Positions 10,971 to 33,704 of a DNA stretch of 64,000 nt are shown one piece after another. How positions within the stretch are numbered: the stretch's first letter is position 1; each line of letters starts with the position of its first letter. Position numbers and translations under genes: made by a program. This DNA is from Trichosporon coremiiforme (lineage: Eukaryota; Basidiomycota; Tremellomycetes; Trichosporonales; Trichosporonaceae): assembly GCA_039545355.1 (NCBI GenBank), contig BCJJ01000002.1, forward strand, positions 31,128 through 95,127, in the 5' to 3' direction. The notes beneath the pieces were generated by a model. The model was given only the letters and a program-made list of their open reading frames with translations. It had not been told where the DNA came from and made no database searches.

Positions 10971-13649
10971 TTAGAGCTGGACGGGGTTGTTGAGCTGGAC
11001 GGTTGCCTGGCCACCGTTCAGCTTGACCCAGATAATAGGGGGCTCAGAGCCGACCTGGTCGGTGCGGCCGCCGCTAGCCCCGCCTCCAGGGATGGTGACG
11101 GGCACCTCAGCGGGGCAGTTCATATCGCCAGCGGAGACGTCGACGTGTGTGATCTGGGTTCCGTCGGCATTGGTGCGGAACACGGCCGAGGGCTTGCACG
11201 CGTCGAGCGCCTGGCGGTCGAGGAAGTACTGTGCGAAGTCGTCGTGCTTCAGCGACACGATGGGCCAGTTGGTTACGCGCGCGACCTCGCCCGCCACGCT
11301 CTCGACCCACCCCATCACCATTGACATCTGGCCCGTCTTGCTCCCCACCGTGATGCTGGGCATGTCGACCAGGCGCAGGTTCGCCTGGTGGAACATGTAG
11401 GGATCGGCCTGGAGCGAGAACAGGTACGGCGTGTTGACGTCCTTCGCATTCTGCAGCAGGTCGTTGTAGTCGCCGTATCCCTTTGAGATGTCCTTCCACT
11501 CCTGCACGTCGCACTCCCACGTGTCGCAGTTGTAATAAATGCTAGTCGCCCAGCGGGGGACGATGACCAGACCGGCGTAGCCGTTGCCCTCGACGGTCGA
11601 GATGAGGGGGTGGTAAGGGGACTCGCCGTTGCGCAGGACGGGGCGCGTGTTGTCGCCGACGACGTGCGTGATGCCGTTCTCCATCCAGGCGCGGATAACG
11701 TCGCCGTTGTGCAGACCCGTGATCGCCGGAGGGATAATGCCCTGGGGCGAGAACATGCCGTCCGCAATGCCGACCTGCTTCAGCCACGCCTGGTTGAACT
11801 GGATCTCGAGAGCGGCGTCGTGCGCAGTCGCATTGTTCATTTCCTCATGCGTGAACGTGTGCGAGACGTGGAAGAACGCGTCCCGCTTGCTCGTGTCCGC
11901 GTACCACTGCGTCAGCTTGTCGCGCTGCGTGCATTGATACGACCAGGGGTATGTCGTCCACTCCTTCGGCCAGAAGTCGACACCCGTGCCGAGAGGCTTC
12001 ATGAATTCGAGCTCAGTCTCCGGCACCTCGGGGTAGTCGACCGCGTAGTCTGGCTTGCACACTCCTCCCGAGCTCGGGTCAGTCGCAGCCAGGATGTCGC
12101 CGTTACCGTTGTGGCCGAGCTCGAGGCGCACGTTCGACCCGGCGGGCAGGCGTCCGTTCAGGTCGTTCTGCCAGTTCGCGTGGCCCTCGAGGTCCTCCGG
12201 CCTGAGGCGGAACACGGACCCAGCGGGAAGGTACATGTCGGTAGCGAGCTCGACGTCGTCGATCTGGATGTTCAGGTGCGTCTTGCGCTTGCCGAGGAAG
12301 AGACCGCGCGTGAGCCAGTGGATGTGCGCATGCTGGAACGCGGCGCAGGTCGTGCTCCACTGCGGCGCCCAGGACGTGAACCACACGAACTGCTCGCGCC
12401 CGTCCGCGAAGTTGTTGATGACGGCCGCGACCGTCTCGCCGAACGTCCCGTCCGCGGCGAACTTGGCGACCGCCTTGGTCGTGGCCGTGTCGACGACCTT
12501 GGCGGGGTAGTGCCACAGGCCCTTTGCGCTGAGACCCGCGCCAGTCTTAAGGTTCGCAGTCGGGAAGTCGGACGTGTCCGTGATACTGATGTCCTGCTCG
12601 GAGCCCGTGCCGCCCGCGCCGGCGGCGTCGACCTCGGCGCCAAAGTTGGGTCCAGGATACTCATTGATACGAACCATGCGCACACTGAAGAGCACCTGGT
12701 AGTCGTGGATCTGCTTCCACTGGTCGTCGGTGATGGCACTGCGCCAGCCATCCGAGTAATCGTACGAAAGCGCGTCCATGACAATAATGCCTGAGTAGAG
12801 GCCGTGCGTCGCGCTGTCGTTCAAGGCTGGGAGAGTCACGCCTTCCTGAGGTACCAGCACGCGGTCATATGGGATACCGTAGCCCTCAAGACCGTGGAAG
12901 CCGGATTCGGCACCGTAATCGTCTTTGGCGAGGATAAGGATGTGGTTGTCGACGGTCGCGCCACCGATGCGAGACACGGTGGGCGAAGTCGCGGGGTTGG
13001 GAGGGACGACGACCGAGGGCGCGGCACTCCCCGGCGACGCGTCGGGGGTAGCCGACTGGTCCGGGACGACGGGCGTGTCGGAGGGGCGCACGGCGCCGCC
13101 GGTGCCCGAGGTCGTGGCGGACGCCTCAGGAAGCGCAGCCGACGACGAGACGGCGGACGAGGCGTCGACAGAAGTAGGGGACACGTCCGGGGAGACGGAA
13201 GCCATAACGGACGACGCTATGTCTGACGAGGGCGAGGCGGCGTTGCCAGCCGACGAGGGCAAGCCTGCGTTGCCAGCCGACGAGGGCAAACCGGCGTTGC
13301 CAGCCGACGAGGGGCTGGCAGAGGGGTCCTTGGGCGCCGCCGTCGTGGTCGTCGTCGTCGGCCTGGACGTGGCCGGCGTGGTGGGCTTCCCAGTCGTCTT
13401 GACAGGCTTCGCGGTGGTCGTGGGCTTGGCCGGAGTCTTCTTCGTGGTCGTCGCTTTATGCATGTGGCCGGGGGGGTTGGCCCAGCCATGGTCTTTGTTC
13501 TTGCCGTTACAGGGGTCACGGGGGTACTCGCGGTACGGGATGTCGTTGCGGCGCTGGTACGCGCGGTGCCCACAGGCGCCGGCATTCGCACACGCCTCCG
13601 TCACGGAGAGGACTGAGAGAGCGACTCCAAGGGCGATGGTAGCTCGCAT
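10971..13649 (-). CDS. agd3: Agd3-like galactosaminogalactan deacetylase (CE18)
   Basis: Predicted 892-residue secreted enzyme that N-deacetylates GalNAc residues of galactosaminogalactan, giving cationic galactosamine needed for adhesion. The ATG at 13649 gives the signal peptide MRATIALGVALSVLSVTEA and lies 45 bp after a TATA element. A Cys-containing segment follows (CANAGACGHRAYQRR), then about 150 residues of Thr/Ser/Pro/Ala linker with tandem PSSAGNAGL repeats, encoded by 27-bp DNA repeats near 13240-13315. The rest matches the Agd3 type, which carries a CBM87-like domain and a CE18 deacetylase domain. Landmarks are HLNIQIDDVELATDMY (about residue 465) and HVSHTFTHEEMNNA (about 595), which carry the Asp and His residues expected at the metal site. 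A. fumigatus Agd3 is shorter; the extra length is linker. The gene has no intron. Its position beside ega3, sph3 and uge3 homologues supports the assignment. Confidence 0.9.
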   Translation of the reverse strand: MRATIALGVALSVLSVTEACANAGACGHRAYQRRNDIPYREYPRDPCNGKNKDHGWANPPGHMHKATTTKKTPAKPTTTAKPVKTTGKPTTPATSRPTTTTTTAAPKDPSASPSSAGNAGLPSSAGNAGLPSSAGNAASPSSDIASSVMASVSPDVSPTSVDASSAVSSSAALPEASATTSGTGGAVRPSDTPVVPDQSATPDASPGSAAPSVVVPPNPATSPTVSRIGGATVDNHILILAKDDYGAESGFHGLEGYGIPYDRVLVPQEGVTLPALNDSATHGLYSGIIVMDALSYDYSDGWRSAITDDQWKQIHDYQVLFSVRMVRINEYPGPNFGAEVDAAGAGGTGSEQDISITDTSDFPTANLKTGAGLSAKGLWHYPAKVVDTATTKAVAKFAADGTFGETVAAVINNFADGREQFVWFTSWAPQWSTTCAAFQHAHIHWLTRGLFLGKRKTHLNIQIDDVELATDMYLPAGSVFRLRPEDLEGHANWQNDLNGRLPAGSNVRLELGHNGNGDILAATDPSSGGVCKPDYAVDYPEVPETELEFMKPLGTGVDFWPKEWTTYPWSYQCTQRDKLTQWYADTSKRDAFFHVSHTFTHEEMNNATAHDAALEIQFNQAWLKQVGIADGMFSPQGIIPPAITGLHNGDVIRAWMENGITHVVGDNTRPVLRNGESPYHPLISTVEGNGYAGLVIVPRWATSIYYNCDTWECDVQEWKDISKGYGDYNDLLQNAKDVNTPYLFSLQADPYMFHQANLRLVDMPSITVGSKTGQMSMVMGWVESVAGEVARVTNWPIVSLKHDDFAQYFLDRQALDACKPSAVFRTNADGTQITHVDVSAGDMNCPAEVPVTIPGGGASGGRTDQVGSEPPIIWVKLNGGQATVQLNNPVQL

Positions 13650-13693
13650 GTTACCTTTGTTGTTGCTGGGGGAGATGACACGCCGTCGCTGCC

Positions 13694-13700
13694 TATATAT
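13694..13700 (-). promoter_or_regulatory. TATA element of agd3
   Basis: TATATA on the minus strand, about 45 bp upstream of the chosen ATG at 13649. It argues against the longer frame that starts at 13877. Confidence 0.55.
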
Positions 13701-16202
13701 CGCGCTGAGAGGCTGGCTAGAGCTTGTTTGTCCGTCCGAGCTTCCAGGAATAGAATGAAGCTCAATCGGCGTTGCGCGTCGCAGAGACACAGGACATAAG
13801 ACACCCGCTGCGCAGAGACACAGGACATAAGACACCCGCTGCCGCTGTTTCCCAGAGTCCCAAGCCCCCCAGATCACGGCCGGAATCCGGTCACGTCAAG
13901 GAGAAACGCGCTACGGCGACAGTGAGTGCAGCGAGCCGTCTGCGAGCCGTCTCCGGTGGAGGAGGAACCCGGTGCGAGACAGCGCGCGCGCGCGTACTCT
14001 TTGAGACGATTCAGGCAGACCCAGGGGGCCGAAGCCTCCCGGGAACACGGTACGGCCCTGAGCCGGGCCTGGCATGGCTGAAAAGAAAAAGCAGGGTGTT
14101 TAGTGTTACGGGAGACGCAGGTACGACAAGTGACTCGCCCGTGAACGCCGCTTCCGTTTTCGCAATGCTCGCAAAGCATCCGAGAATCCAAGTCTGTGTA
14201 ACGTCAGCTACGGCAAGAGGATCCAATTGACGGGGGCATACAACATTGCCTGCAAATCCCAATACATGTGCAAGTGGACGGTAAGCGATCAAGATCAGCC
14301 GAATTAGCGCTGCTCGCTCGGAGACCGATTAGTACATGCACGCAGGGCGCCTATGTTACGATTGTATGCATGCATCTGGGCCTCTGGGTAGGATGGGAGT
14401 TGAGGCGGTATTCGGGTAGCAGCAGTGCAGTTTGAATCAAAGCGAAAAGCCTAATCGGCCCGAGTCTTGTGGTCTCGACCGACCGTGACAGTGGGCGGGA
14501 GAGGTACCCAAGTGTTCCGCTAGAATGCTAGAATGAGTGGCCGGGCGTAGGACGGGGCTGGTCATTCCGCGTCAGTGGGCTAGATGCAGTAGCCTAGCCA
14601 GGTTTCACAGCCTTTTGTCTTTCAAGTCGGCACCGAAGAACGCTTGTTGTGAAAAAGAGGGACGACGTTGGCCCAAAGCGAACGGAGCAGAGAATGGAGG
14701 TATGGAGATGGCCGACGATCACCTTTGTGGAAGTGGCTCAAGTGGCTCAAGTGTCTCACGTCATCGGGTGTGGGAGTAACCCTGTCTCAGAAAATGGGTC
14801 TCAGGCAATGGCTTACGCCTCACACTCAGCGCCTACCGTCCGCTACCGAGCTACCGAAGCCTGGAACCTAATGAAGAAGAGATGCGCAAAGCCACGAATG
14901 CGCTCGGGTCACATGCATGATGGAGCCCCAACCAGAAGGTCGACCGCAGAGCCCACTTACTGAACCCCCTGCACACCCCTGTCGTTTCCTGACAAAGCCC
15001 CTAAGCCTGGATCGATCTGAGGTGCACGTCCACCACAGTCAGGAACCACAACCCAGGACGACCTCCCTCTCCTGCTTACTTTCCCACCTCGCCCAAGCCA
15101 AGTGTGCCCAAGAGCGTACCCGCATCGTCTTGCACTAGGCGTCCCATGGACTGACTGACTCATGTTCGTGCAAGTGCAACTCCGGACCGCTGCAGCGGCT
15201 TCTGCAGAGTTCTGTACTAGTGGGAGCCAGCCCGCCATTCACAGCCAGCCAAGTGCCAAGTATAGCCTCCTCTTGTCCCCCAACAGTGCGGGCTGTGCAT
15301 TCAGACATCTCTGCCGGCTCCGCGAGCGCCTTGAACGAAGCCTTCTTCATCAAGCTCGACCTCGTCCTTGACCTCGTCCTCGTCTCTCGACAGGTTCGCT
15401 CTCCCACCTCAACTTGCTTGCAACTCACTCTCTTCATCGATACAGACAGACGCGACGCATGCCAAGCACTGCGTCGTGACATCTGCAACCGACGTACATG
15501 CAATACGCCCGCGCTCGACAAACACGCCTAGCCTGGGCCCAGTCCAACCGACCAGAGTCGTAACACAACCAAGATGGGCACCGCACTCATCCAGTTCATC
15601 CCGTCCGACGGGCCGGACTCCAACTCGTACCAGAAGGATGGCACACGAAGCAGTGAGTAATAGCTTTCCCTGCCTTACGAGAGGACCTCAGAAAGTCCTC
15701 AAGTCCACCAACCTCCCGTGCACGACCTCGGTTTCCTACCGAGTGACGAGTGACCATCCATACATCCATCCATCTATCCATCCAATCCATCCATGGCCAA
15801 GCATCCAGGTCCACCGACCGGTCCAGCCGGGTGACGTCGTGTTTTTAAGCTTTCACCACCGCTGTCACTTTTCACCTTTTTGCTGCTTGCAGCATGATCG
15901 GGTTCGCGATCGCGATGCGGCCTGCGACGCGTCGAACGTCCTTGCATGCGATCATACATAATGCCCATGTCCATGCATCCATCCCTTGTCTCTCATCCCT
16001 ATCCCCCCCCTTTCCCCCTTCCCCCTTCCCGCTTCTTCATCTTCCCTTCTTTGTAGTTTCGTTTGTAGTCTCTTGAAGGCGCTCCGTCTAGCCGCCGCAT
16101 CCACTCCTTTCATCCCCACATTCTTTAACCTAGACTTACCGGACAGAGTCCGATCTCGAGTCAAACACTACGAAACGACAGCGCTGGCCGTTGTGGAAGA
16201 AA
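13701..16202. other. divergent intergenic region agd3/ega3
   Basis: 2.5 kb between divergent agd3 and ega3. A short ATG frame at 15573-15650 (MGTALIQFIPSDGPDSNSYQ) ends at a GTGAGT donor and could be an orphan or alternative first exon; no partner exon was identified. CCAT-type simple repeats lie at about 15752-15795 and pyrimidine-rich tracts at 15990-16060, just before ega3. Two copies of a CAGAGACACAGGACATAAGACACCC-like element, 31 bp apart, lie near 13783-13838. Confidence 0.4.
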
Positions 16203-17126
16203 ATGGTCATCCTCGGATTCCTCCTCGTCCTCATCCTCCCCTTGGCGGTTGGCATCCCCGTCGGGATATGTACCCGGAAGGGGCACTCCTCCGCCTCCGC
16301 TTCGGCCTCTGCCTCTGCCTCTGCTTCTGCTTCTGCCACCGCCTCCGCCTCCGCTTCCACCCCTACAGCGATCTGGCAGCCCTCCGTCGGCGCCTCGTGG
16401 CAGATCGTGCTCAGCGAGCAAGTGCCCATTGTGAACGGCAAGCCCACGCCCAACGTAGACGTCTACGACGTGGACCTGTTCGATGTCGAGGCTTCTACGA
16501 TCTCGGCCCTGCACGCCGCGGGCAAGAAGGTCATCTGCTACTTCTCCGCGGGTTCGTTCGAGGACTGGCGCCCCGACGCCAAGGACTGGGACCAGGCCGA
16601 CCTCGGCAACGACCTGAAGGGGTGGAAGGGGGAGAAGTGGGTCAAGACGGGCTCTGCCAAGGTCCGGTCCATCATGGCCACGCGCCTCCAGATGGCGGCG
16701 GACAAGGGCTGCGACGCCGTCGACCCGGACAACGTCGACGCGTACAACAACGAGAACGGCCTCGGCCTGACCGAGTCGGACGCGACCGACTACGTCAAGT
16801 TCCTCGCGCAAGAGGCCGGCAAGCACAACATGGCTTGCGGGCTGAAGAACGCGGCCGCGATCGTGCCTAGTGTCTCTGGCTCGGTCCAGTTCTCAGTCGT
16901 CGAGCAGTGCGCAGAGTACGGCGAGTGCAGGCAGTACCAGGTCATGATTCAGGAGAAGAAGCCAGTCTTCTCCATCGAGTACCCGTCCCAGGCGGGCACC
17001 GAGATGCCCTCGGACGCCCTCGCCGCCCAGTGCAATGCGGACGGCAGCCAGGGATTCTCCATGGTCATGAAGAAGATGGCGCTCGACCAGTGGGTTGAGC
17101 CCTGCGAGCCGACTTTTGACGCGTAG
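16203..17126 (+). CDS. ega3: Ega3-like GH114 endo-alpha-1,4-galactosaminidase
   Basis: Predicted 307-residue membrane-anchored glycoside hydrolase that cleaves alpha-1,4-galactosamine stretches in galactosaminogalactan. The N-terminus (MVILGFLLVLILPLAVGIPVG) is a signal anchor, as in A. fumigatus Ega3. A Ser-Ala dipeptide spacer (about residues 28-50, from a GCCTCT-type hexanucleotide repeat) follows, then a GH114 TIM barrel. It contains VDVYDVDLFDV, KVICYFSAGSFEDWRPD and DAVDPDNVDAYNNENG, with acidic residues at the strand ends expected for catalysis. The first ATG in the frame is 16203; the longer frame begins at TTG and is not used. No intron. It is convergent with the sph3-like gene, 572 bp away. 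Confidence 0.9.
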   Translation: MVILGFLLVLILPLAVGIPVGICTRKGHSSASASASASASASASATASASASTPTAIWQPSVGASWQIVLSEQVPIVNGKPTPNVDVYDVDLFDVEASTISALHAAGKKVICYFSAGSFEDWRPDAKDWDQADLGNDLKGWKGEKWVKTGSAKVRSIMATRLQMAADKGCDAVDPDNVDAYNNENGLGLTESDATDYVKFLAQEAGKHNMACGLKNAAAIVPSVSGSVQFSVVEQCAEYGECRQYQVMIQEKKPVFSIEYPSQAGTEMPSDALAAQCNADGSQGFSMVMKKMALDQWVEPCEPTFDA

Positions 17127-17698
17127 GCGTTGCGTCTCCATAGTCTCCATAGTTTATGGGGCGCGCGGCTGGTTCCGCGCTCCACTCGACTCGACTCGAC
17201 TCGACTCGACTGCGTCCAAGCGGACTCATGTTTTCACCAGTATGCATACTACGCTCTTTACGCAATGTTCTTGTCCCAGCTTGAATCCGTCCGTGCACTT
17301 TTATCAGGGCTGCGCAGCTCTGGCGGTGGTGTCTTATCAATGGCAGGCAGCGTAGGAGTCTATCGCTCCGAGTCTAAATAAAGCATCGTCAGGGTTTCCA
17401 TGTTATCTACAGTACAGCATCATCTCACCTCATCTCCGTGTCGGCCTGTGCTGCGATGAAACAACGTCGATCCGTTCCCCAGCACAGCCTCCGTCCCAGA
17501 CCATCGGAACCTATGCACAGCATTCCGGTCGTGTCAGCCTCGGTGATCGTCCCGTCGGAGTCGCATATCTTGCATATCTTGGTGCCTCGCGCGCAGTCCG
17601 CAGTGTCGATCCTCTCGCCACTCAGCGACGAGCGCAGCTTTAACCTAGAACCCAGCGCGGTTCGCAACTCGCAGCAAGCTGCTCGTTGCTCGCTCGGC
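17127..17698. other. intergenic, convergent ega3/sph3 ends
   Basis: Holds a GACTC pentanucleotide repeat near 17185-17210 and an AATAAA at 17377. No gene was recognised. Confidence 0.4.
17377..17382 (+). terminator. possible polyadenylation signal of ega3
   Basis: AATAAA 251 bp after the ega3 stop, between two convergent genes. Fungal 3' ends are loosely specified, so this is tentative. Confidence 0.3.
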
Positions 17699-18793
17699 TT
17701 AGAACCGCGTGCTCCGCGCCTGTGTCTGCGTCTTTGTCAAGCGCTCCGCGACCGTGTCCCAGGTCTTCGGGAAGTGGGAGTACCCCCCAACCTGCTCGGT
17801 GAGGAACACGCCGCCGAAGTCGAGCTGCGTGATCTGGTCCGTGACGGCTATGGCGGCCTTCGCTACGCCTCCTGCGTGGGTTCCATCGAGCTCTGCACTA
17901 TGATTGCGCGCGTGGCCTTTGCGGATGGGAGACGTCGGAGAAGTCGGAGAGGCGGAGGTGCAGTCGGTGGGCGAGGAGGGCTGCTCGAGCCCCTCAAGCT
18001 GCCCGAAGGAGTGCACCATCGCGACACACTTTGACCGCAGGTTGTACGGGATCTGGACCAGCCCCTTGCGGAGGAAGTAGGCGTACCATTCCTTATGGCT
18101 CTGCTCGAAGACGACGGCGAGGTCGCAGTCCTCGAGATACCCCTGATCCACGACCACGCCGGGGTTGTAGCACACCAAGCCTGGCTGGCCCATCTCCTCC
18201 TCGAACGTCTTGCGGATGTACGCTGCCAGGTTGGCCATGTACGGCCGGTGGCAGGGATCCCACGGCGCCTCGTCTATGAATATCCCGCTCACGCTGAAAC
18301 GGCCCTGTGACTCGGCGGCCCAGCACGCATACGCGTCAATGTCGGACTCGATCTCGGGCGAGTCCCGCTTGCACCACACGCAGTGCACGTACCCGAGGAG
18401 CGTTATGTTGGGGATCGCGCAGAGCTCCGCCAAAGCAGACTGGTAGCATGCGTCCGGGAGGACAGTGTTGCCTGGTCCATTGTTGGGGTTCACGATGGCG
18501 ACGAAGGGCACGAGCGGGTTCGCCTTGGCGGTTCGGATGAGGGGGCCCCAGGCGCCAGGGGAGGGATAGATGTATAGGGGAATGACAATTGCAGTAGGCG
18601 CCATGGCGGAGCGGATGCCGGGGTGGCGTCGGTGCGGAGTGAGTGAGGCCGAAGTCGTCGGAGGAGTAGGAGCAGGTGACTGTCCGGCGTGACGTTTGGT
18701 CGAACGAGGACTAGGTGGACAGTCTCGGTGGAGGTTCTCAGACTTGAACTTTCGTGAAGAGGTGAAGTCGAGGTTGAGGCGGCCCAACTTCAT
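17699..18793 (-). CDS. sph3: Sph3-like GH135 (spherulin-4 family) hydrolase
   Basis: Predicted glycoside hydrolase of the spherulin-4 family, which in A. fumigatus degrades galactosaminogalactan and is required for its production. The domain starts at AIVIPLYIYPSPGAWGPL and includes PFVAIVNPNNGPG, LLGYVHCVW, GIFIDEAPWD (acidic active-site pair), VCYNPGV and CDLAVVFEQS. The frame from 18793 codes 364 residues. A second ATG at 18604 (MAPTAIVIPL) would give 301. Neither start provides a signal peptide or membrane anchor, unlike the A. fumigatus protein, unless an upstream exon was missed. A Ser/Thr/Pro-rich insert (SPTDCTSASPTSPTSPIRKG) interrupts the barrel near its C-terminal end. No intron is visible. 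The start is uncertain; the family is clear. Confidence 0.85.
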   Translation of the reverse strand: MKLGRLNLDFTSSRKFKSENLHRDCPPSPRSTKRHAGQSPAPTPPTTSASLTPHRRHPGIRSAMAPTAIVIPLYIYPSPGAWGPLIRTAKANPLVPFVAIVNPNNGPGNTVLPDACYQSALAELCAIPNITLLGYVHCVWCKRDSPEIESDIDAYACWAAESQGRFSVSGIFIDEAPWDPCHRPYMANLAAYIRKTFEEEMGQPGLVCYNPGVVVDQGYLEDCDLAVVFEQSHKEWYAYFLRKGLVQIPYNLRSKCVAMVHSFGQLEGLEQPSSPTDCTSASPTSPTSPIRKGHARNHSAELDGTHAGGVAKAAIAVTDQITQLDFGGVFLTEQVGGYSHFPKTWDTVAERLTKTQTQARSTRF

Positions 18794-19589
18794 TGTGGAC
18801 GTGGACTCTGGCGAATCCGATGCAAACGGCGATATGGGGGCAGGAACGGTGGGAAGTCACCTCGTGCACAGTGCACGTTTGCTGCGGGTGCGTCTGCTGG
18901 CGGAGTACGTGCGGTAGCGGAGGCGAGGCTGCCGCGGACGGCGGCGGGCGGTAAGGACGGTAGGCGGACCGAGGATGACGGTCAGCGAAGAGAGAGAGCA
19001 AAGGACCAGAGGACAGGGCCACTGTTTCAGGCGTATGCGGACACTCTATGCGTGCACGCTTCGCACGACCACAGCAGGTGAAGGGTTAGGAGGCGTGGGT
19101 TGTTCCTGGTCTTTCCTGGCCTTCTGACCTAGTGCTGAGCCTGTTGCGGAGGGCGAGCCTTTCTGGGGGTGTCGTGGTCGTGATCGTGGCCGTGGTTGGG
19201 TCGGGGTCTGCAGTGTGCCAACGTGCTTTGGTGGAGAAGACTTGCCTTGCTGGAAGGCGCAGATGACTAAGCTGTGTGGGAAGGTTGGCTCCAAGTTGGG
19301 AGAGTGCAATGAGATGCGATGCTCACGCAAGGTCACCGATCGGTGTGGGTGAAGGTCGAGAGGTCTCGATGTTGCGAATGTTGCGTGATGCGGTGCGCTG
19401 GTAACATTAACGTTGAGGTTCAGGGGACGACAGGGGGCGGGGACCGAAACCGAGCCCGAGTGTGGGGAGAGTGAGTGTGGATCAGTGGAGTGGATCAGTG
19501 GATGCACCCACTTGAATCGCGATCTGATCTGTGGTGCCCGGTGCCCCCCCGGCCTAGCCTGCGGGCTGTTCGGCAGCCACAGCCAGCGC

Positions 19590-19660
19590 TCCCAAGCCCC
19601 TCCCTCCCAAGCCCCTCTCTCCCAAGCCCCTCTCTCCCAAGCCCCTCTCTCCCAAGCCCT
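19590..19660. repeat. 15-bp tandem repeat
   Basis: About five units of CCCAAGCCCCTCTCT with small variations. In the reverse frame it reads as repeats of WERGA. Confidence 0.8.
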
Positions 19661-20029: not shown

Positions 20030-20198
20030 GGGGGGGGGNNNNNNNNNNNNNNNNNNNNNNNNNNNNNNGGGGGGGGGGGCATAAGAGTCTATCGATCTGA
20101 CTCGCGCTCAGGAGCGACTTCAGGAAAGAGGGGGGGGGGGGGGGGGGCATAAGAGTCTATCGATCTGACTCGCGCTCAGGAGCGACTTCAGGAAAGAC
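20030..20198. repeat. 68-bp poly-G-containing tandem repeat spanning an assembly gap
   Basis: Copies starting CATAAGAGTCTATCG at 20080 and 20148, each preceded by a run of G. 30 Ns lie at 20039-20068, also between G-runs. The true copy number is unknown. Confidence 0.75.
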
Positions 20199-20956: not shown

Positions 20957-20962
20957 TATAAA
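20957..20962 (+). promoter_or_regulatory. TATA box of uge3
   Basis: TATAAA 68 bp upstream of the ATG at 21025. Confidence 0.6.
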
Positions 20963-21024: not shown

Positions 21025-22218
21025 ATGGCCCTCTACTCCCCCTCGGCGTCTTCCGTCTCCTCGTTCTCGGACGCCTCTACGGCCCCGACGACTCCTGGTT
21101 CGGGCTCTCCTCCCCCCGGTCCTGCCTATGTGCTGGTACTCGGCGGCCTCGGATTCATCGGCTCTCACACTGCCCTCGAGCTGCTCAAGGCGGGCAAGAA
21201 CGTCGTCATTGTCGACGACCTCAGCAATGCCTTTGAGACCGTTCTCTCCTCGATCCGCGAGGCCGCTGCCCTCTGGTGCAACGCCAACGGCCGCACCGTT
21301 CCCGCCCTCAAGTTCTACCATATGGACTACCGCTCCCTTAGCCTGCGCCTCGTACTCGACTCATACCGCATCAGCGGCGTCATCCACTTCGCTGCCTTCA
21401 AGTCTGTCTCCGAGTCCATCGCCCAGCCGCTCGACTACTACATGAACAATGTGTGCGGCCTTGTCTCGCTCCTGAAGACACTCGACAGCTACGGCATCAA
21501 GAAGTTTGTCTTCTCCTCGTCTGCGACCGTCTACGGCACCAAGGCGGAGGAGGGCATCCCGCTGCGCGAGGAGGACGTCGTCCACCACCCGCACACCTAC
21601 GAGCGCGACGGCGAGACCGTCACTGCCATCCCCGGCGCGATCGGCCTGACCTCCCCCTACGGCCGGAGCAAGTACTTTGGCGAAGCCATTCTCGCCGACC
21701 TGGCCTACTCTGACCCGTCGTGGTCCATTCTCGCCCTCCGCTACTTCAACCCGATCGGGTGCGACGCCTCTGGCCTGCTGGGCGAGGACCCGCGCGGGGT
21801 GCCGACAAACCTCTTCCCCGTGCTCGCGCAGGTTCTGACGGGCGACCGGCCGCGGCTCGAGATCTTCGGCTCAGACTGGGAAACGAGGGACGGCACGGCT
21901 GTGCGCGACTTCATCCACGTCTCGGACCTTGCTCGCGGCCACATCGCCGCGCTCGACGCCAAGGTCGACGAGCCCTTCCGTACCTTCAACCTGGGTACTG
22001 GCACGGGCACGACGGTCGCCGAGGCGCATGTCGCGCTCGAAGCCGCCTCAGGACGCAAGATCCCCGCCGTCCTCGCCCCAAGGCGCGAGGGCGACGTCGG
22101 CAGCTGTGTCGCCGCCAATGCTCGTGCCACAGCCGAGCTGGGGTGGACGACGACCGAGTCCCTGCTCCAGAGCGCATGCGACCTGTGGCGCTTCGTCGCC
22201 CGTGTCCGCGCCGTCTAA
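21025..22218 (+). CDS. uge3: Uge3-like UDP-glucose/UDP-GlcNAc 4-epimerase
   Basis: Predicted 397-residue cytosolic NAD-dependent epimerase that would make UDP-Gal and UDP-GalNAc for galactosaminogalactan. After about 33 Ser/Pro-rich residues comes the Rossmann motif GGLGFIGSH (about residue 40), then DDLSN, IHFAAFKSV, FSSSATVYG and the catalytic Y-x3-K in SPYGRSKYFGE (Tyr about 212, Lys about 216). The C-terminal half has GTAVRDFIHVSDLA, NLGTGTGTTV and APRREGDVGSC. In this last motif a Cys (about 361) occupies the gate position that is Tyr299 in E. coli GalE and Cys307 in human GALE. A small residue there permits N-acetylated sugars. No intron. The start is supported by the TATA box and is the first ATG after it. 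Confidence 0.92.
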   Translation: MALYSPSASSVSSFSDASTAPTTPGSGSPPPGPAYVLVLGGLGFIGSHTALELLKAGKNVVIVDDLSNAFETVLSSIREAAALWCNANGRTVPALKFYHMDYRSLSLRLVLDSYRISGVIHFAAFKSVSESIAQPLDYYMNNVCGLVSLLKTLDSYGIKKFVFSSSATVYGTKAEEGIPLREEDVVHHPHTYERDGETVTAIPGAIGLTSPYGRSKYFGEAILADLAYSDPSWSILALRYFNPIGCDASGLLGEDPRGVPTNLFPVLAQVLTGDRPRLEIFGSDWETRDGTAVRDFIHVSDLARGHIAALDAKVDEPFRTFNLGTGTGTTVAEAHVALEAASGRKIPAVLAPRREGDVGSCVAANARATAELGWTTTESLLQSACDLWRFVARVRAV

Positions 22219-24959: not shown

Positions 24960-27900
24960 ATGGCGACCTTCTTCCAGCCCGGCTTCGAGGAGTCCGGCGG
25001 CGTGACCAACTGCACCGTGAACGGGTTCGAGATCTTCTGCAATGCGATCCTCCCCTCCGACCGCCTCCTGGCGCACTGGTACCAGGGCTTCAGCATCGTG
25101 TTCGCGGCCGTGACCTTCTGCGTGCCGATCCTGCTGTACGGTCTGTACAAGCTCATCCGGAGACGACCAAAGGACTACCAGCCGATACGAACGAAACCGA
25201 AAGAGAGTGAGAAGGAACGCGATCGGAAAGCGGCGCGCATGTCGATGGCGTCGCGGAGGTACACGCCGACCCATTCACGGCATGCCTCATACGCCACCCG
25301 GCTGTCTTTGGCAACCGGGTTCTCTGAGAGCCAGCTCCCGTCCTCGTATGGACACACGACGCAGTCGAGCCTGGGCCACCAGTCGCAGCCGTCGTTCTCG
25401 CCCTCGCAGTCCTCCTTGGGCACGTACAACACAGCGAGCCTGCGGAGGTTCACCCAGCAGGCGCGGGGAGCCCTCTCATTCCGCAAGCACAGGGACGACG
25501 ACAGCACGGTGCTGTCGCACCGCGACTCGTTCGCGAACATCTCCCTCCGTGGCAGCCTGAAGAACACCAAGTCCTTCACGGTTCTGAGTGACTACAACTT
25601 TAACCTCGACTACGCCGAGACAAGCACGGCCGACTTCGTTGTCTTCCCTCTGCACATGCCGAAGCGCGACAGCCGGGAGATGCTGACTGGCTCGCCAGCG
25701 CATCCCGGGAGTCCTGCCATGACCCCGTCCGACGTCAGCCATACCTGGGGCAGTGGCCCGGGCAGTGTCAGTATCCGCGGCAGTCCCCGCGTCGGCACCA
25801 GCGGCGACTGGGGCATGACCCCGCGCCTCACCCAGGCGCCCAGCTCGGACTGGACCCATACCCTCTATTCCCCGCGTCCTGGGAGTGAGTGGTCCCCCGG
25901 CAACGGCAACGGGCCGCAGAAGATGAAGCTCGGCGCTGTCGATCTCGAGGACCTGACCGAGGACGCGCTCTCATTAGCGAACCTGGGCGACACGGTCGTG
26001 GACCTGCTGGACCGGTTCGTGGAGCTGGAGCTGAACGGCTTCGCGCTGCGTGTCGCGCCGAGATCTACCGCCGAGGAGATCGATTCTCTGGTCGACGCGC
26101 TGCACTACCGCGGCGTCTCGAGCATCGTGTGCATCCACGAGGAGCACCCGGCGCTGAACGAGCTGAACCTGGAGTTGCCGGCTGGCCTCATCGTTGAGAA
26201 CGCGTGCATCCTCCCATCCGGTGAGCCGCGGGACTTCTTCCAATCCCGCCCGCTGCGCGACCTGATGGCGAACTGCGCGCGGGAACGCCAGAACCGCCCT
26301 GAGTTCTTTGTCGGCTTCCTCGACCAGTGGGAGAACCGGCCGCATCCGGCCGTTATCCGGCGCGCGATCAAGATTGCGGAACACTACGGCGCCGTCTTCG
26401 AGCATCGCCCGCGGCTGCTCGGCTCCGCGCCCACGAGCACCCGCACAATCGGAGGGTTCGAGTACCTCCGCCGACCGGAGATTGTGGACCTGCAACGCTC
26501 ATGGGCGAGCGAGTCTCGCCCCGTCGATCTCACCCCGACAGGCGAGCCGACCCACCTCCCCATCGCTGTCATCGAGAGAGTCATCCCCGGAGTCGCCGAC
26601 TGTCTCGTCGAGAAGGATCTCCCCGATGAACTGGTCAGGTTGCAGCACGAAGTTCCCCAGCTCGTGCCTGCGCCAGAGTACATGGCGGCGTATCGCGAGG
26701 CCGACTTTTGGACGCAGGGAACAGACGGCGCTCAGCTCAGCGAGCACGGATGCTTCCCGCTGTGCTCTGAACCGCATGATGGGCACTACGCGGCGATCGT
26801 AGCCGAGCAGTCCCAGCTGCGCGCGCTCGGGATGCTGTACCCCGTTCAGAACGCCGAGGAGCAGGCGATCCTGTCGCAGCTGCGCTCGCTCGCCGGTGAC
26901 CCGAGCGCAGACATCCTCCTGCACGAGCTGATCCACGGCCTGAGCACGCGGAGTATCCGGATCCACAAAGGGTTGCATTCAGGGTTCCGGGCTCCGGATG
27001 CAAACGCCGCGTTCTGGGGCGTGTGTGCGCCCAGGCACGACCCGACCGATCCGTCCCCGAATCCCGTCTTCGACATCTTCATCTCCCAGTCTGCGCCCAA
27101 TGACGCCGCCGTCGTCCTCCACACCTGGCTCGCGCACCATGGCCGGTCCCGCGTCACGCGCCTCATCCACGAGGTCGTGCTTGAGAACCTCACCGGCGGA
27201 GGACACCCGAGCGCCCTCCCGAACACGGTGCGCACCGCCCTCGAGGGAGCGAGCACGGCCGAACTTCTCCTCATCCTCCAGCAGCTCAGGTTGAGCGGGG
27301 ACGAGACACCGTTTGGCGCCCCGATCCGCGCCTTCGCGACCGAACTCCTCATGGACGGAACGAGCAAGGCAACGTGGATGAACATGGTCGCACGCCGCGC
27401 GCTCGACGGATCAATGAGCATGCTCGAGATCCTCTGTCTCCGGCTGGAGCAGCACGCGCGCGCTGGCGCCGTCCGCCTCCCGCTCATCGCGGACCTGATG
27501 AAGCTGTACCATGTCATTGACGACGTGATGGTCGACTCGCTGTACAAGGGCCAGCATAAGACGCTGAAGACGCTGTCCAAGGCGCTCCTCCACGTGTACG
27601 GGCGCGAGCCCGCGCCGCCCGGGTCTGGCGAGCGCGTCGACGTGCAGGCCGACCTCTTCGCCCTCATCTTCTTCACCTGCCTCCGCAGAGCCGCGTTCGA
27701 GGACGTATACCTCGAGAGCGTGGACCGCTGCCCCGTCTTCCTGCAGCAGGCGGACCAGGCCGCCGTCTTCTCCGAGCTCTGGACGCTCGGCTCCCAGTGC
27801 GAGAACTACTTTGGTGTGGTGCCCCGCGAGATCGGAGACATCATCTACCACCGCCGCCAGGGACAGCTCGAGGCTCTCGGCGGACCAAAGGCGGAGGACA

Positions 27901-30900
27901 GACAGAACAACGAGATCATGACGATGTACGCTTCCACGGACGACGCGCCGCCGAAGACCAAGGAGGCCATCCTCCAGATGCTCGCTGAGAGCAGCGTCGA
28001 CGCCAAGCTGAGTCTGTTCGAGCGTTTTACCGTCTGGCGCATGCGCTTCGCCGCCGCGAGCGCGATGAGTATCTTCTGTGCTCCCGCCATTGTCGACGTC
28101 ATCCTTCTCACCTTTGTCGGACGCGGCCTGTTCATGACCGCCTACATGGACTCGGACATGGTGGAGGCGGCCGGGTACGCGCTCCTAACCGCCCTCCTCC
28201 TCACGGCCGGCGTCACGGGGTGGGTCGGCAGCGCCGGCTCGCACTACCTCCCGCACTACGCCTATGACAACATCATTCTCTTCCACGTCCAGCGCCTCAG
28301 CGGCGGCTTCGTCCTCGCCGTCATCATCTCCGTCTTTGGCTGTATCGGTTTCGCTGTCTCTGTCTCGGTCGCGTCGGGCTTCGTCTTCGCCGCGTATCTC
28401 ATCGGCATCTCGACGTATCTCAACCTGCTCGGTATCATGAGCACGATGCATCAGCACGGCTCCCCGCTGCCTTCTGGCCGCAACGTGTTCCTTCAGACGT
28501 TCCCGATCCTCTTCATCTCGCCCCTCCTCTCCTCGCTCGTGAACGGGCACGACCTCCAGATCTACCTCCCCGTCATGTACGGGTTCCTTATTGTCGCGCT
28601 GCTGCGCTACCGCCGGCTCTGTCACCAGTGGAGCGCCTGGATGAAGAACATCCCCGACTTCAAGGACCAGGACATCACGGACTGGTATACTTCCAAGGTG
28701 ACGGTTGAGAAGAAAACGGACGATGTGGCGACACAGGCGCGCTCCGCGTTCGTCGCCGCCATCGCGTCCTACCGTCGCCGCGACGCAGACATGGTCAAGG
28801 ACCCGCTCGTCGGCAAGGTCGCACGGGGCATGCCGTATGTCGCCTGGTTGTTCAAGAAGGGCGGAGCATCTCAGCCGGAGCCGTTCACGACGGCGTGGTT
28901 CACGGCGCTTGGCGAGGCCATCTCCCAGCAGCGCCAGCTTTCCCGAGGCCTGAAGGACCACAGCGTCATGGCCCTCTTCCGCGTCGCGCGCTACGACCTC
29001 GGCCAGAACCTCGGCCTGTTCCTCGTCGCGCTCCTCGACCGCTGGATCATGCTCGTCATGGGCGCCCGCAAGCCGTACCCCTCGATCTATCTCGACCTCC
29101 GCTCACGCTACGCGTTCTGCTTCTGCATCGTCTACTTCTGTCTCGGGTCCATGGTCCTTGACGCGACGCTCTTCAAGTACTGGTCCATCCGTGACGACCT
29201 GTCCCAGGAGAAGCTTCTCGACCTCGCCCACGCACAGCGCGTCGCCCGCGAGACGGACCGCAAGCGCAAGGACTGCATGCTTCAGGCCCTCGCCGACGTG
29301 GCGGGCAAGGTATCGCTCGTGTTCGGGTCCATGACAATCCTTATGTGGCTCTTCGTCGACAACTACAAGACGGTCATCATGTTCTACATGTACATGTTCG
29401 GGTACTCGTGCTGCCTGCTCTTCCAGTTCAACCGGTGCTTCACGACCAACGTCGCCGTACACGTCCGCATCATCCTGTACTCGGCGGCCATCGGCTTCCT
29501 GATCGGCGTGCTCTTGCACGCGCTCCCCTGGACATGCGGATTCCTGTACAACGACATCATCTGCCAGAACTTTGCGGCCGGCATGGCTGCCCTCGGCACG
29601 TCGCTGTACACGATTAAGGACTGGTTCGGCTCGCCCTCGCCCCTGCTCTCGCCGAAGAACGAGAACCCGGACCCGGTCTACGTCCAGCCCCGCCTTATGA
29701 CGCTGCCTACTGCTCGCAAGCCGGTGTGCAAGTCTGAGCTGCCGAAGAAGTTCACGAACGCGACTCTGTGGCACGCCGACGGCACGGCCACCAGCTCCCA
29801 GGTCAGTCGCATCCTCGTGGCGGCTCTGAACGGCGCTCGCGGGCGCACGGCGTGGTCGACGCGCGTGATGCAGGAGGCGCTGAACATGTGGACTGGCGCC
29901 CGTCTCACCGTCGGCGTCCTGCCTCGCGACCAGTTCGACTCAGCTGGCCTCGGCGAGTTCTTCTCCATCTCGTACCACCGCAATCTCGCCCTGCACGTCG
30001 CGCTGTGCTTCTCGCAGATGGACATCACACACACGATGCTGCCGAACATTGTCGCCGAGTGCATTGTCTACCACGTCGCTCACGTCCAGATGGGTCTCAG
30101 CGACTCGCAGTCGCTCTTCGCCGAGAGCCTCGTGAACGGCATTCTGAGTGTGCGCCTGCAGACGGACCTGGGCCAGGTCGATGTCGAGGCGATGGGTGCC
30201 CTTCCGCGCAAGTCGCGCAAGGAGTTGATGCGTGCCCTCTGCCTCGAGCTCGACGTCGATACCGAGTGGCAGAACATGCCACCCGACGCGCGCGCGGCCA
30301 TCATCGCACGCATCGAGGGCGAGCCCGTCAAGTTCTCGGCCGCGTTCACAAGCTGGTGCTCCCAGTCCAACGTCGACGTGCAGACGGCCGACTTTGCAGT
30401 CGACCTCCACGTCGCCCTGTACCAGAACTCGGTCCACCTTCTTGGCTACGCGGACGCGAAGGATTACGAGGGGCCCGCTCGCCTCATGTCTGTCCCCATC
30501 GTGCAGGACCGCAAGCCCGCGTTCTGGAAGAGGCTCCAGCTTTTCCCTTACGACGCGGTGAAGTGGATCGCCATCATCACCGGCGGAGGCTCCAACATCG
30601 AGCGTGAGATCTACTACCTCCTCCACGGGAAGCGGGTGCCCATCGCCATCGTCCTGGGGATCTGGAAGTGCTGCTGGTCCGTGCAAAAGTTCTTCGTCTA
30701 CTGGATCCTGCTGTACCACCGCCCGGCGCTTGCGCGCATCGCCCGCTTGGCCACCAAGGGCGCTCGCCGCAAGATCAACCGCAACCGCATCGTCGTCGAG
30801 CTCACGCGCCGCTTTGTGACCGCATTCGCCGCCGTCGAGGACGACGGCTCCATGTCCCTCCAGGGATGGGATGGGCTGCATGAGTGCGACCCCGCCAAGG

Positions 30901-33704
30901 GAACGCCTCTCTTCATCGCGAGCTACGACCGCGACTTCCGCCTCATGTACCGCTCCGAAACCGGCGCGGGCATGGTCACTTACCACTATCCCGCTCGGGA
31001 GAAGGGGCGCCATCCCTCGCGCCGTCCCACCAGCGTCGAGGTCACGAACACGGACCTGCACTCAGTGGGCTACTATGACAAGAAGGGGCGCGTGCTCCGC
31101 GGTAATCTCACGCTCGGGGAGCGGACAGACCTCACGTTCAAGTACCACTACAAGAAGGGCAACACGGGCGGGTCGCACCTGCTCCGAGCCGACTACAGCC
31201 GGGGCGGCGACTCGCTCAGCGTATTCTGGGGCAACCCCATCGACACCGAGGACTACACGTGGGTGCCGTCGAAGATGGTCGGCCTCATCGTGCGCCGCAT
31301 CCAGGGACGCACGTACACAACCGAGTTCGACTACTCGCACCGCCGCGACCCCGTCACGACAACGTACCTGGAGGAAGGGAACGGGCGGCGCACGGCGCTG
31401 ACGGAGGCGCCCGCCTGCTGGCCGGGCGAGAAAGTGCTTCTGTCCATGCCGAGCAACCACAGCTTTGAGGCGGACGACCTGCTCATCGAGCACTCGGCGC
31501 TGCAGCTGGGCCAGATGCGCGCGTACGCACGCACGAACAAGAAGTCACTCCACCCCGCGCGCTGGCTCTCCCTCTGGCGCAGGAGGCAGTATACCCCTGT
31601 TCCCACCTGGCGCGTCCGCACCGAGCTCTGGAACCAGTGGCTCCAGAACGCGGACCTCGACGCCGTCACCGCGTGCACCGTCGACGAGATCATCCTCCGC
31701 GAGGAGCCGCTGCTGCGTCCCTATTGGCGCGCGCGCGACATGGGCCGTCTCCCCGAGGCGCGCAAGCTGCTCGACGAGAACATCAGCCAGATCGTCAGCG
31801 CGATCGACATCGAGACCGACGTGTCTGAGAAGACGCTGCTGGCCATCCGCACGTCTGACCTGTACGCTATGGGCTTGGCGCAGGACGCAAACGCAGTCAC
31901 GTCGCGCCCTCAGGACTGCTACCACGACACGCACGACCGCATTTCGGTCATCTTCAATGACATTGGGTGCTGGCCCGTCGCGCCCGGCGGTGTGTCAAAC
32001 TGCCGCCGCGACCTTGTCAACGGCCACAGCACAATCCGCAACCACGTCCTCGCCGAGTGCGCCAACGACTATGGCATTCCCCGCTTCCAGGTCGAGAAGT
32101 CGGTGCAGTCGCTGAAGCTGCTCCCGCTCTGGGGTCTCGACGGCGGAACCGCCCGCCACGGCGTCATCGACAACTACCTCGAGTCCCAGGTCGATGCCAA
32201 GGTGCAGGACACTGACCTGGATCGCGACATTGTGGGCACGTTCGTGCCGCTCCTCGACGCCTTCGTCAAAGGGTGCCGCATGAAGCGCCTCGGATACGAC
32301 GACCTGCTCCACCTGTCCAACGTCTTCCTCTCGTTCGGCAAGTACTACGAGCTCAAGGATTACACGCTCACGTGGCGGTCGCCCGAGGTCGAGCAGGCGT
32401 GGATCGCGGCGTGGATGCGCTCGTATGAAGACCCGAACATTGCGGACCCGACGGAGTGCTTCGACATCTCTCGCCCGTCCATGTTCGACTTCCGCCAGGC
32501 GCTGTACATCTACCTCGCGTACTTCTTCATCTTCTCGGTCGGCGTGCCCGAGCGCTGCCCTCGCGTCTTCCAGAGCACGCACCACGGCATCTCGTCCCTC
32601 TTCGGCATGGTGCTCAAGTACCGCCGCGGCGTGACGTTTGGCATTTGGGACCACGCCATCCTGTGGCGCGAGTCGTGCCTCAACTTCTCGGTGGCGCAGT
32701 GCCAGCTTCCTGTCGCCGTGCAGAACATGCTCCTCGCCGGCATCGGCATCGCGACCCGCCTCGCCTACTTCCACGCCGACGTCATCCTGCCGTGCGCGTC
32801 GCTGTTCAACCCGATGTGGGAGACCGAGCTCGGTTCGGACGGCTCACGCATCTGCGCCCGCAACACGTTCCACCGCAAGATCGACCCGATCGTGAACGGC
32901 ATCTCGAATATGGAGTCCTTCACGCCAGTCGACAAGGTGCGGACCGAGATCCCGACGGTCGTCATGCTCTCCAACGTCCAGTTCATCAAGGGCGTCAAGG
33001 TCGCGATCCAGGCCGCCGATATCATCATCAACAAGTTCGGCTTCAAGGACTACCGCCTCGTCGTCTACGGCGCCAAGGACAGGCAGCCGTCCTACTGCCT
33101 CGAGATGGAGAAGCTCATCGTCGACAACAACCTGAGCGAGCACGTCGTGCTCGCGGGCTTCGGCAAGCCGAGCGAAGTCCTCAAGGACGCGTGGCTGTTC
33201 ATGAACTCGTCCATCTCCGAGGGTCTCCCGCTCGCGATCGGCGAAGCCGCGCTCGCCGGCGTACCCATCGTCGCAACCGAGGTCGGCGCAACTGCGCTCG
33301 TCCTGACCGACCCTGCAAACCCGGAGCAGCGGTACGGCGAGGTCGTTCCTCCGAACGACGCACTGGGTCTGGCGCGCGCGCAGATCGCGATCCTGTCCAT
33401 GTCCGGCCCCTGGGCCAAGTTCACCGACTACGGCGAGGGTCCGCCCCTGCCAGACATCATCACGCCAGGCGAAGACGTCGAGAAGCTCACGCAGCGCTTC
33501 TACAAATTTGCCGAGGACAGGCGCAAACTCGGCCTCCTCTCTCGTGAGGTCGTTCTTCACTCGTTCCACGGAAGCAGGTACCTCCGCGAACACGAGCAGA
33601 TGTACTGGATCCAGTGGCATCTCGCGCAGATGCGAGCCAACAAGCAGCTCAAGGCGAAACCGTTCAGGTTTGGCGCGCCGGAGCACCTCAGATACATCGA
33701 ATAG
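24960..33704 (+). CDS. gtb3: Gtb3-like giant membrane glycosyltransferase (GT4)
   Basis: Predicted 2,914-residue plasma-membrane glycosyltransferase, the candidate galactosaminogalactan polymerase and exporter. The ATG at 24960 (MATFFQPGFE) is followed by a membrane segment at about 42-66 and a Ser/Arg-rich cytoplasmic linker (70-330). A soluble region of unknown fold (about 330-1010) comes next. About ten membrane helices lie in clusters at about 1030-1090, 1113-1217, 1353-1404, 1450-1540 and 1892-1920, for example VLAVIISVFGCIGFAVSVSV and SAAIGFLIGVLLHALPW. A region with YYDKKGRVLRGNLTLGERTD (about 2040) resembles sugar-binding beta repeats. The C-terminal GT4 domain (about 2520-2900) has VVMLSNVQFIKGVKVAI, KDYRLVVYGAK and the E-x7-E motif in SEGLPLAIGEAALAGVP. 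The 8.7-kb coding region is one open frame with no intron. Linkage to agd3, ega3, sph3 and uge3 homologues supports the name. Confidence 0.88.
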   Translation: MATFFQPGFEESGGVTNCTVNGFEIFCNAILPSDRLLAHWYQGFSIVFAAVTFCVPILLYGLYKLIRRRPKDYQPIRTKPKESEKERDRKAARMSMASRRYTPTHSRHASYATRLSLATGFSESQLPSSYGHTTQSSLGHQSQPSFSPSQSSLGTYNTASLRRFTQQARGALSFRKHRDDDSTVLSHRDSFANISLRGSLKNTKSFTVLSDYNFNLDYAETSTADFVVFPLHMPKRDSREMLTGSPAHPGSPAMTPSDVSHTWGSGPGSVSIRGSPRVGTSGDWGMTPRLTQAPSSDWTHTLYSPRPGSEWSPGNGNGPQKMKLGAVDLEDLTEDALSLANLGDTVVDLLDRFVELELNGFALRVAPRSTAEEIDSLVDALHYRGVSSIVCIHEEHPALNELNLELPAGLIVENACILPSGEPRDFFQSRPLRDLMANCARERQNRPEFFVGFLDQWENRPHPAVIRRAIKIAEHYGAVFEHRPRLLGSAPTSTRTIGGFEYLRRPEIVDLQRSWASESRPVDLTPTGEPTHLPIAVIERVIPGVADCLVEKDLPDELVRLQHEVPQLVPAPEYMAAYREADFWTQGTDGAQLSEHGCFPLCSEPHDGHYAAIVAEQSQLRALGMLYPVQNAEEQAILSQLRSLAGDPSADILLHELIHGLSTRSIRIHKGLHSGFRAPDANAAFWGVCAPRHDPTDPSPNPVFDIFISQSAPNDAAVVLHTWLAHHGRSRVTRLIHEVVLENLTGGGHPSALPNTVRTALEGASTAELLLILQQLRLSGDETPFGAPIRAFATELLMDGTSKATWMNMVARRALDGSMSMLEILCLRLEQHARAGAVRLPLIADLMKLYHVIDDVMVDSLYKGQHKTLKTLSKALLHVYGREPAPPGSGERVDVQADLFALIFFTCLRRAAFEDVYLESVDRCPVFLQQADQAAVFSELWTLGSQCENYFGVVPREIGDIIYHRRQGQLEALGGPKAEDRQNNEIMTMYASTDDAPPKTKEAILQMLAESSVDAKLSLFERFTVWRMRFAAASAMSIFCAPAIVDVILLTFVGRGLFMTAYMDSDMVEAAGYALLTALLLTAGVTGWVGSAGSHYLPHYAYDNIILFHVQRLSGGFVLAVIISVFGCIGFAVSVSVASGFVFAAYLIGISTYLNLLGIMSTMHQHGSPLPSGRNVFLQTFPILFISPLLSSLVNGHDLQIYLPVMYGFLIVALLRYRRLCHQWSAWMKNIPDFKDQDITDWYTSKVTVEKKTDDVATQARSAFVAAIASYRRRDADMVKDPLVGKVARGMPYVAWLFKKGGASQPEPFTTAWFTALGEAISQQRQLSRGLKDHSVMALFRVARYDLGQNLGLFLVALLDRWIMLVMGARKPYPSIYLDLRSRYAFCFCIVYFCLGSMVLDATLFKYWSIRDDLSQEKLLDLAHAQRVARETDRKRKDCMLQALADVAGKVSLVFGSMTILMWLFVDNYKTVIMFYMYMFGYSCCLLFQFNRCFTTNVAVHVRIILYSAAIGFLIGVLLHALPWTCGFLYNDIICQNFAAGMAALGTSLYTIKDWFGSPSPLLSPKNENPDPVYVQPRLMTLPTARKPVCKSELPKKFTNATLWHADGTATSSQVSRILVAALNGARGRTAWSTRVMQEALNMWTGARLTVGVLPRDQFDSAGLGEFFSISYHRNLALHVALCFSQMDITHTMLPNIVAECIVYHVAHVQMGLSDSQSLFAESLVNGILSVRLQTDLGQVDVEAMGALPRKSRKELMRALCLELDVDTEWQNMPPDARAAIIARIEGEPVKFSAAFTSWCSQSNVDVQTADFAVDLHVALYQNSVHLLGYADAKDYEGPARLMSVPIVQDRKPAFWKRLQLFPYDAVKWIAIITGGGSNIEREIYYLLHGKRVPIAIVLGIWKCCWSVQKFFVYWILLYHRPALARIARLATKGARRKINRNRIVVELTRRFVTAFAAVEDDGSMSLQGWDGLHECDPAKGTPLFIASYDRDFRLMYRSETGAGMVTYHYPAREKGRHPSRRPTSVEVTNTDLHSVGYYDKKGRVLRGNLTLGERTDLTFKYHYKKGNTGGSHLLRADYSRGGDSLSVFWGNPIDTEDYTWVPSKMVGLIVRRIQGRTYTTEFDYSHRRDPVTTTYLEEGNGRRTALTEAPACWPGEKVLLSMPSNHSFEADDLLIEHSALQLGQMRAYARTNKKSLHPARWLSLWRRRQYTPVPTWRVRTELWNQWLQNADLDAVTACTVDEIILREEPLLRPYWRARDMGRLPEARKLLDENISQIVSAIDIETDVSEKTLLAIRTSDLYAMGLAQDANAVTSRPQDCYHDTHDRISVIFNDIGCWPVAPGGVSNCRRDLVNGHSTIRNHVLAECANDYGIPRFQVEKSVQSLKLLPLWGLDGGTARHGVIDNYLESQVDAKVQDTDLDRDIVGTFVPLLDAFVKGCRMKRLGYDDLLHLSNVFLSFGKYYELKDYTLTWRSPEVEQAWIAAWMRSYEDPNIADPTECFDISRPSMFDFRQALYIYLAYFFIFSVGVPERCPRVFQSTHHGISSLFGMVLKYRRGVTFGIWDHAILWRESCLNFSVAQCQLPVAVQNMLLAGIGIATRLAYFHADVILPCASLFNPMWETELGSDGSRICARNTFHRKIDPIVNGISNMESFTPVDKVRTEIPTVVMLSNVQFIKGVKVAIQAADIIINKFGFKDYRLVVYGAKDRQPSYCLEMEKLIVDNNLSEHVVLAGFGKPSEVLKDAWLFMNSSISEGLPLAIGEAALAGVPIVATEVGATALVLTDPANPEQRYGEVVPPNDALGLARAQIAILSMSGPWAKFTDYGEGPPLPDIITPGEDVEKLTQRFYKFAEDRRKLGLLSREVVLHSFHGSRYLREHEQMYWIQWHLAQMRANKQLKAKPFRFGAPEHLRYIE

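Follow-up and report, generated by a model that had tools for sequence, protein, structure and literature searches.

Two copies of a galactosaminogalactan gene cluster, presumably one per subgenome, in a probable Trichosporon hybrid

The galactosaminogalactan (GAG) cluster in Trichosporon asahii is the closest described relative of the locus analyzed here. In a survey of more than 250 fungal genomes, Lee et al. 2016 (PMC4817252) recognized a GAG cluster by an adjacent synthase, epimerase, and deacetylase together with a GH135 and/or a GH114 hydrolase and reported such clusters in 28, T. asahii being the only basidiomycete among them. In that survey, T. asahii Agd3 is nested within the Sordariomycetes, from which a transfer was argued; a MULE-domain gene lies in or near the cluster; and soybean agglutinin (SBA) stained the matrix between hyphae. 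These findings are repeated in a 2017 review (PMC5383668). The first-pass annotation of the DNA described here had pointed to related genes in T. asahii, and rightly so: a complete cluster and binding of soybean agglutinin are in print (PMC4817252). The core of its claim is thus already known, since the T. asahii cluster, the transfer hypothesis, and the lectin test were all published in 2016.

Two ascomycete clusters complete the comparison. In N. crassa, NCU05132-NCU05137 is reported to run synthase, epimerase, GH135, GH114, and deacetylase, the same order as here, with an additional small gene (NCU05134) between the epimerase and the GH135 gene, of which no counterpart was noted in the present cluster; a synthase mutant is reported to have lost its GalN/GalNAc polysaccharide (PMC11356417). 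The A. fumigatus cluster holds the same five families, with gtb3 listed at the other end, i.e., gtb3, agd3, ega3, sph3, uge3 (PMC6753227). The published UgeB genes of Apiotrichum were considered and set aside, an epimerase alone not being equivalent to a GAG cluster. GAG genes in hybrid species did not appear in the titles and abstracts surveyed, a coverage that leaves out most subscription journals, and the string "galactosamin" is absent from the main texts of PMC12820176, PMC6642101, and PMC7026411.

The window (the whole stretch of DNA that was analyzed, 64,000 nucleotides) is part of contig C2 (G000:C2:31128-95127) of a genome of 42,036,993 bases (42.04 Mb) in 134 contigs. Five adjacent GAG genes were found by Pfam in a 22.7-kb part of it, at 10,971 to 33,704 (Table 1). 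The first-pass annotation had proposed these five genes at this place, and all were confirmed at a level far beyond chance. Synthase, epimerase, deacetylase, GH135, and GH114 genes are adjacent, as in the clusters recognized by Lee et al. 2016. The locus resembles that of T. asahii, where the same five genes stand together in a Trichosporon, with a reported HGT hypothesis and a lectin-positive matrix, and it extends the lone basidiomycete case to a second genome. It differs in that two syntenic copies, apparently one per subgenome, are present in a 42 Mb genome and in that no MULE domain was found in the present genome, whereas T. asahii is reported to have one inside its cluster or close by. 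The first-pass word "yeast" for the carrier is loose: Trichosporon also grows as hyphae, and hyphae of T. asahii are shown in the survey (PMC4817252).

Table 1. Features of the window (window positions), with comparison of the GAG and flanking genes to their counterparts on contig C4; dN/dS between copies was calculated by NG86
Feature	Position	Strand	Predicted product or description	Family match	Protein identity to C4 copy	dN/dS
multicopper oxidase	1815-4208		conserved flank in both presumed subgenomes		89.6% over 462 residues	
agd3	10971..13649	-	secreted CE18 GalNAc-polymer deacetylase, 892 aa	PF25115/PF25116/PF25117	88.6%	0.112
ega3	15574..17126	+	GH114 endo-alpha-1,4-galactosaminidase, 352 aa, two exons	PF03537 7.1e-84	89.5%	0.137
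sph3	17699..18793	-	GH135/Spherulin4 hydrolase, 364 aa	PF12138 5.7e-64	86.7%	0.151
N run (assembly gap)	20,039-20,068		between sph3 and uge3, inside a G-rich repeat			
uge3	21025..22218	+	GalE-type UDP-Glc/UDP-GlcNAc 4-epimerase, 397 aa	TIGR01179	97.0%	0.054
gtb3	24960..33704	+	GAG synthase, multi-pass, GT4, 2914 aa, single exon (ATG at 24,960; stop ends at 33,704)	PF13692 (Glyco_trans_1_4, GT4) 6.9e-18	95.0%	0.052
second N run (assembly gap)	39129-39283					
aldehyde dehydrogenase	41285-42952		conserved flank in both presumed subgenomes		97%	

A second complete cluster, syntenic and with all five genes intact, was found on contig C4, outside the DNA available to the first-pass annotation. When the genome was searched with Agd3 and Gtb3, each returned one further strong match, both on C4; Gtb3 also hit a different GT weakly (E 2.1e-4). 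From about 2,800 to 33,750, the window aligns collinearly with the C4 stretch, which is inverted. Both contigs carry the same flanks, with the multicopper oxidase and an acyl-CoA-ligase-like gene (which has matches on both contigs) on one side and the aldehyde dehydrogenase on the other. Because the two copies share these flanking genes, the cluster was in place before the two presumed parents diverged. The dS between cluster copies was 0.52 to 0.68, and dN/dS fell to 0.011 in the last 500-codon block of gtb3, which ends with the GT part. Retention of both parental copies, intact and under constraint, is an argument for the importance of the polymer to these fungi.

Many family matches across the genome occur as pairs on different contigs, and in three of the three extra, noncluster gene pairs compared, protein identity was 97 to 98%. 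These values are nearer the average divergence given for T. coremiiforme (7%) than that for T. ovoides (17%). T. asahii, T. faecale, and T. inkin are haploid. The known hybrids are T. coremiiforme, T. ovoides, and C. mucoides (PMC12820176), and the T. coremiiforme JCM 2938 genome comprises 42,353,277 bases (PMC7026411). RNA-seq data are available for T. coremiiforme and T. ovoides (PMC6642101). From the paired sequences we infer that the two clusters represent one per subgenome of a hybrid Trichosporon, probably T. coremiiforme or a close relative. On a speculative and unlikely reading, the diverged subgenome copies could let such a hybrid mix parental enzymes and produce a GAG of mixed pattern. 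The assignment to the basidiomycetes has indirect support: an acetyl-CoA synthetase exon of the genome matched PDB entry 5ifi, a Cryptococcus protein, best (865 bits; next chain, 641 bits). A search for 5.8S rRNA across the genome gave no match. Separately, the window's 12 Rfam tRNA matches are confined to 35237-63807, its first 35 kb being free of them. That interval also contains repeated copies of a tRNA-like element of about 155 bases, which is found just beyond the C4 cluster as well; the right border of the cluster adjoins a tRNA-rich stretch in both subgenomes.

The proteins were then compared with characterized enzymes, the PDB relatives by sequence being 6nwz for Agd3, 6oj1/6ojb for Ega3, and 5c5g/5d6t for Sph3. 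Agd3 matched Agd3_CE (2.8e-168), CBM87_Agd3 (6.4e-86), and Agd3_C (1.2e-16) and is laid out as a signal-like N terminus, a low-complexity linker, CBM87, the CE domain, and a C-terminal domain, with a single hydrophobic segment at residues 3 to 21. It thus has both the CBM87 and the CE domain with motifs CM1 to CM4 that characterize CE18/Agd3 proteins. Agd3 and 6nwz were identical at 328 of 663 positions (49.5%), and the equivalents of all seven active-site residues (D377, D378, H510, H514, R613, M666, and H668; numbers from PMC7229062) are kept. Ega3 was identical to 6oj1 at 133 of 257 positions, with the GH114/Ega3 catalytic Asp/Glu pair (D189/E247) and W154 retained. The ega3 gene was spliced by a hand-chosen GT-AG model that requires a short first exon (exons 15574-15652 and 16147-17126; intron 15,653-16,146). 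The same spliced N terminus, which ends in a basic stretch and one strong membrane segment, is readable in the C4 copy; two other acceptors in the C4 copy likewise keep the frame open. With this one segment, at residues 47 to 65 near the N terminus, Ega3 is probably a type II membrane protein.

Uge3 exceeded the cutoff of the NCBIfam galE model (TIGR01179; 314.9 bits against 262.3), matched Pfam Epimerase at 5.6e-41, and had human GALE as its best PDB match. Uge3 Cys361 aligns with a cysteine of human GALE, presumably the substrate gate at which a small residue allows UDP-GlcNAc. A third strong Epimerase match in the genome (9.2e-36; G000:C66:13998-14639) lies outside both clusters and is possibly a housekeeping GalE.

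Gtb3 consists of an N-terminal membrane segment, a large soluble part, nine membrane segments (residues 1035 to 1522), and a C-terminal PelF-like GT4 domain. Its best NCBIfam model was PelF (NF038011), and because the score of 71.5 bits is under the curated cutoff of 100 bits, Gtb3 is, by its sequence, classed as PelF-like and was not filed as PelF. The score against DUF3492 (19.5 bits) was likewise under that model's cutoff (23.3 bits). Searches of PDB sequences with Gtb3 returned GT4 matches only, at E values of 0.076 or worse, and AlphaFold predictions made without an alignment for residues 321 to 1053 and 988 to 1741 had mean pLDDT values of 36.7 and 39.4, too low for use.

Sph3 was identical to 5c5g at 72 of 192 positions (37.5%), and D166, E167, and E222 are kept. 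We take Asp166 and Glu167 to be the catalytic numbering, which fits the alignment. The catalytic Asp is printed as Asp196 in the Sph3 numbering paper (PMC12054363). The sph3 start is probably at 18,793. Neither copy of Sph3 has a signal peptide or membrane segment (in the protein of Table 1, no 19-residue stretch exceeded 1.6; maximum, 1.42), and upstream of sph3 the hydrophobic stretches are weak and at nonmatching places in the two copies. An N-terminal TM domain is described for A. fumigatus Sph3 (PMC11356417), in contrast to both Trichosporon copies. This leaves two readings: the gene has a further 5' exon that escaped detection, or the Sph3 of this lineage is a cytosolic protein. Because an N-terminal membrane segment like that of A. 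fumigatus Sph3 is missing, the place of Sph3 in the pathway may be different here. On a speculative reading, a cytosolic Sph3 would shorten or end chains on the side of Gtb3 where synthesis takes place, not extracellularly, which might account for the need for a hydrolase in synthesis. Comparison of A. fumigatus, Trichosporon, and Streptomyces provides a simple way to ask where Sph3 resides and how Gtb3 exports the chain.

The enzymatic activities, export by Gtb3, and polymer composition outlined here are modeled on relatives. Uge3 would generate UDP-Gal and UDP-GalNAc, which the C-terminal PelF-like GT4 domain of Gtb3 would polymerize, with Gtb3's own membrane segments forming the putative passage for the chain. 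Agd3 would remove acetyl groups extracellularly, rendering the polymer cationic and adhesive. Membrane-anchored Ega3 would cleave deacetylated stretches and Sph3 acetylated ones; Sph3 is probably required for synthesis, as in A. fumigatus. The first-pass annotation had suggested that a GAG-like cationic exopolysaccharide is made, and this gains support by analogy: the families, the catalytic residues, and the make-up of the cluster match the A. fumigatus and N. crassa pathways. The published catalytic residues of Agd3, Ega3, and Sph3 are conserved, all five frames are intact, and both copies are under constraint. We therefore consider it very probable that the cluster is a functional one for GAG biosynthesis and that a hybrid Trichosporon has one copy of it per subgenome. 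Weighing against this reading are the Gtb3 scores below the PelF and DUF3492 cutoffs, the missing N-terminal membrane segment of Sph3, and the limited identity of Agd3 (49.5%) and Sph3 (37.5%) to characterized enzymes. The genes might instead act on another polymer or merely degrade or modify the GAG of other microbes, since Agd3, Ega3, and Sph3 are hydrolases or esterases whose substrate could be foreign GAG or Pel. Such a role is highly improbable, however, as the cluster includes a dedicated synthase and epimerase, which are its most constrained members, and T. asahii is reported to stain for a GalNAc polymer (PMC4817252).

The origin of this biosynthetic cluster was considered in light of the two copies. 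Read from Gtb3, the order Gtb3-Uge3-Sph3-Ega3-Agd3 is that of N. crassa and differs from the A. fumigatus list, which we take to follow chromosome order. Gene order agrees with, and favors without proving, the published Sordariomycete donor. The position of the cluster between the same flanking genes in both subgenomes and the published Agd3 tree, which places T. asahii inside the Sordariomycetes (PMC4817252), also argue for horizontal transfer from a Sordariomycete to the Trichosporon lineage before the hybrid's parents separated, and we regard such a transfer as likely. Several observations weigh on the other side. The GC3 of the cluster (0.79 to 0.88) is within the range of five neighboring ORFs (0.74 to 0.88), a likeness that fits an old arrival or no transfer, and a "recent" arrival is hard to reconcile with the dS between the copies. 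The proposed carrier element has left no trace here: a whole-genome search for the MULE domain gave no candidate at first look (the control was positive in 3 of 14 genomes), and Pfam detected no transposase domains in 20 neighboring ORFs.

A vertical origin, in which a dikaryan ancestor had the cluster and almost every other basidiomycete lost it, is compatible with the results obtained here and with the age of the family, which is indicated by published bacterial and chytrid relatives of Agd3 (PMC7229062). We nevertheless consider it rather unlikely, because in the survey of more than 250 genomes T. asahii is the sole basidiomycete with the cluster, the ascomycete carriers all belong to a single subphylum, and T. 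asahii groups inside the Sordariomycetes (PMC4817252). The present genome dates the arrival before the parental split and weakens, for this genome, the idea of a MULE carrier.

More distant counterparts were sought in bacteria, for which actinobacterial Agd3-type operons have been published (Bamford et al. 2020, PMC7229062). With Ega3 as the query, one scan across bacteria and archaea identified 10 GH114 loci. At four of these, all in Streptomyces (L014, L019, L020, and L022), every functional class is present in one same-strand row: a CE18-like deacetylase, a PelF-like GT4, a membrane protein of 482 to 487 aa, two SDR epimerase-like proteins, Spherulin4, and GH114. One 3.6-kb contig (L017) carries Spherulin4 and GH114, and the remaining five loci had GH114 alone at the thresholds used. 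The GT and the membrane protein of actinobacterial Agd3-type/Pel operons are separate genes, unlike Gtb3. The Streptomyces GT passed the PelF model (172 bits; cutoff, 100), and hhalign placed 420 of its columns on Gtb3 at about 2,327 to 2,816 (97.9%; E 5.4e-13). We also considered Gtb3 as a fusion of the bacterial GT and membrane protein. The Streptomyces membrane protein had no profile match to Gtb3 (hhalign probability of 0.0 to 0.4% across seven Gtb3 pieces), and the fusion is therefore unsupported by sequence.

Agd3 and the Streptomyces CE18-like protein were 20% identical over 478 residues. PF25115 was matched in 0 of 9 bacterial genomes with GH114 loci and in 0 of 14 controls; one Streptomyces protein scored 20.0 bits, below the cutoff of 27.6, and the model seems to be built on fungal members. 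That the fungal GAG cluster is a eukaryotized actinobacterial Pel/GAG operon, with Sph3 cytosolic in this lineage, is a speculative proposal that we consider unlikely. By eye, the Streptomyces Spherulin4 reading likewise begins near the barrel and has no hydrophobic lead. At a further set of loci in Streptomycetes (L023-L052), a polytopic membrane protein stands beside a PelF-like GT. One member of this membrane protein family was scanned, that from L019, and had no Pfam match. Of 197 genomes from the order, 153 gave a match to the family, and an uncharacterized Pel-like system may be common among Streptomycetes.
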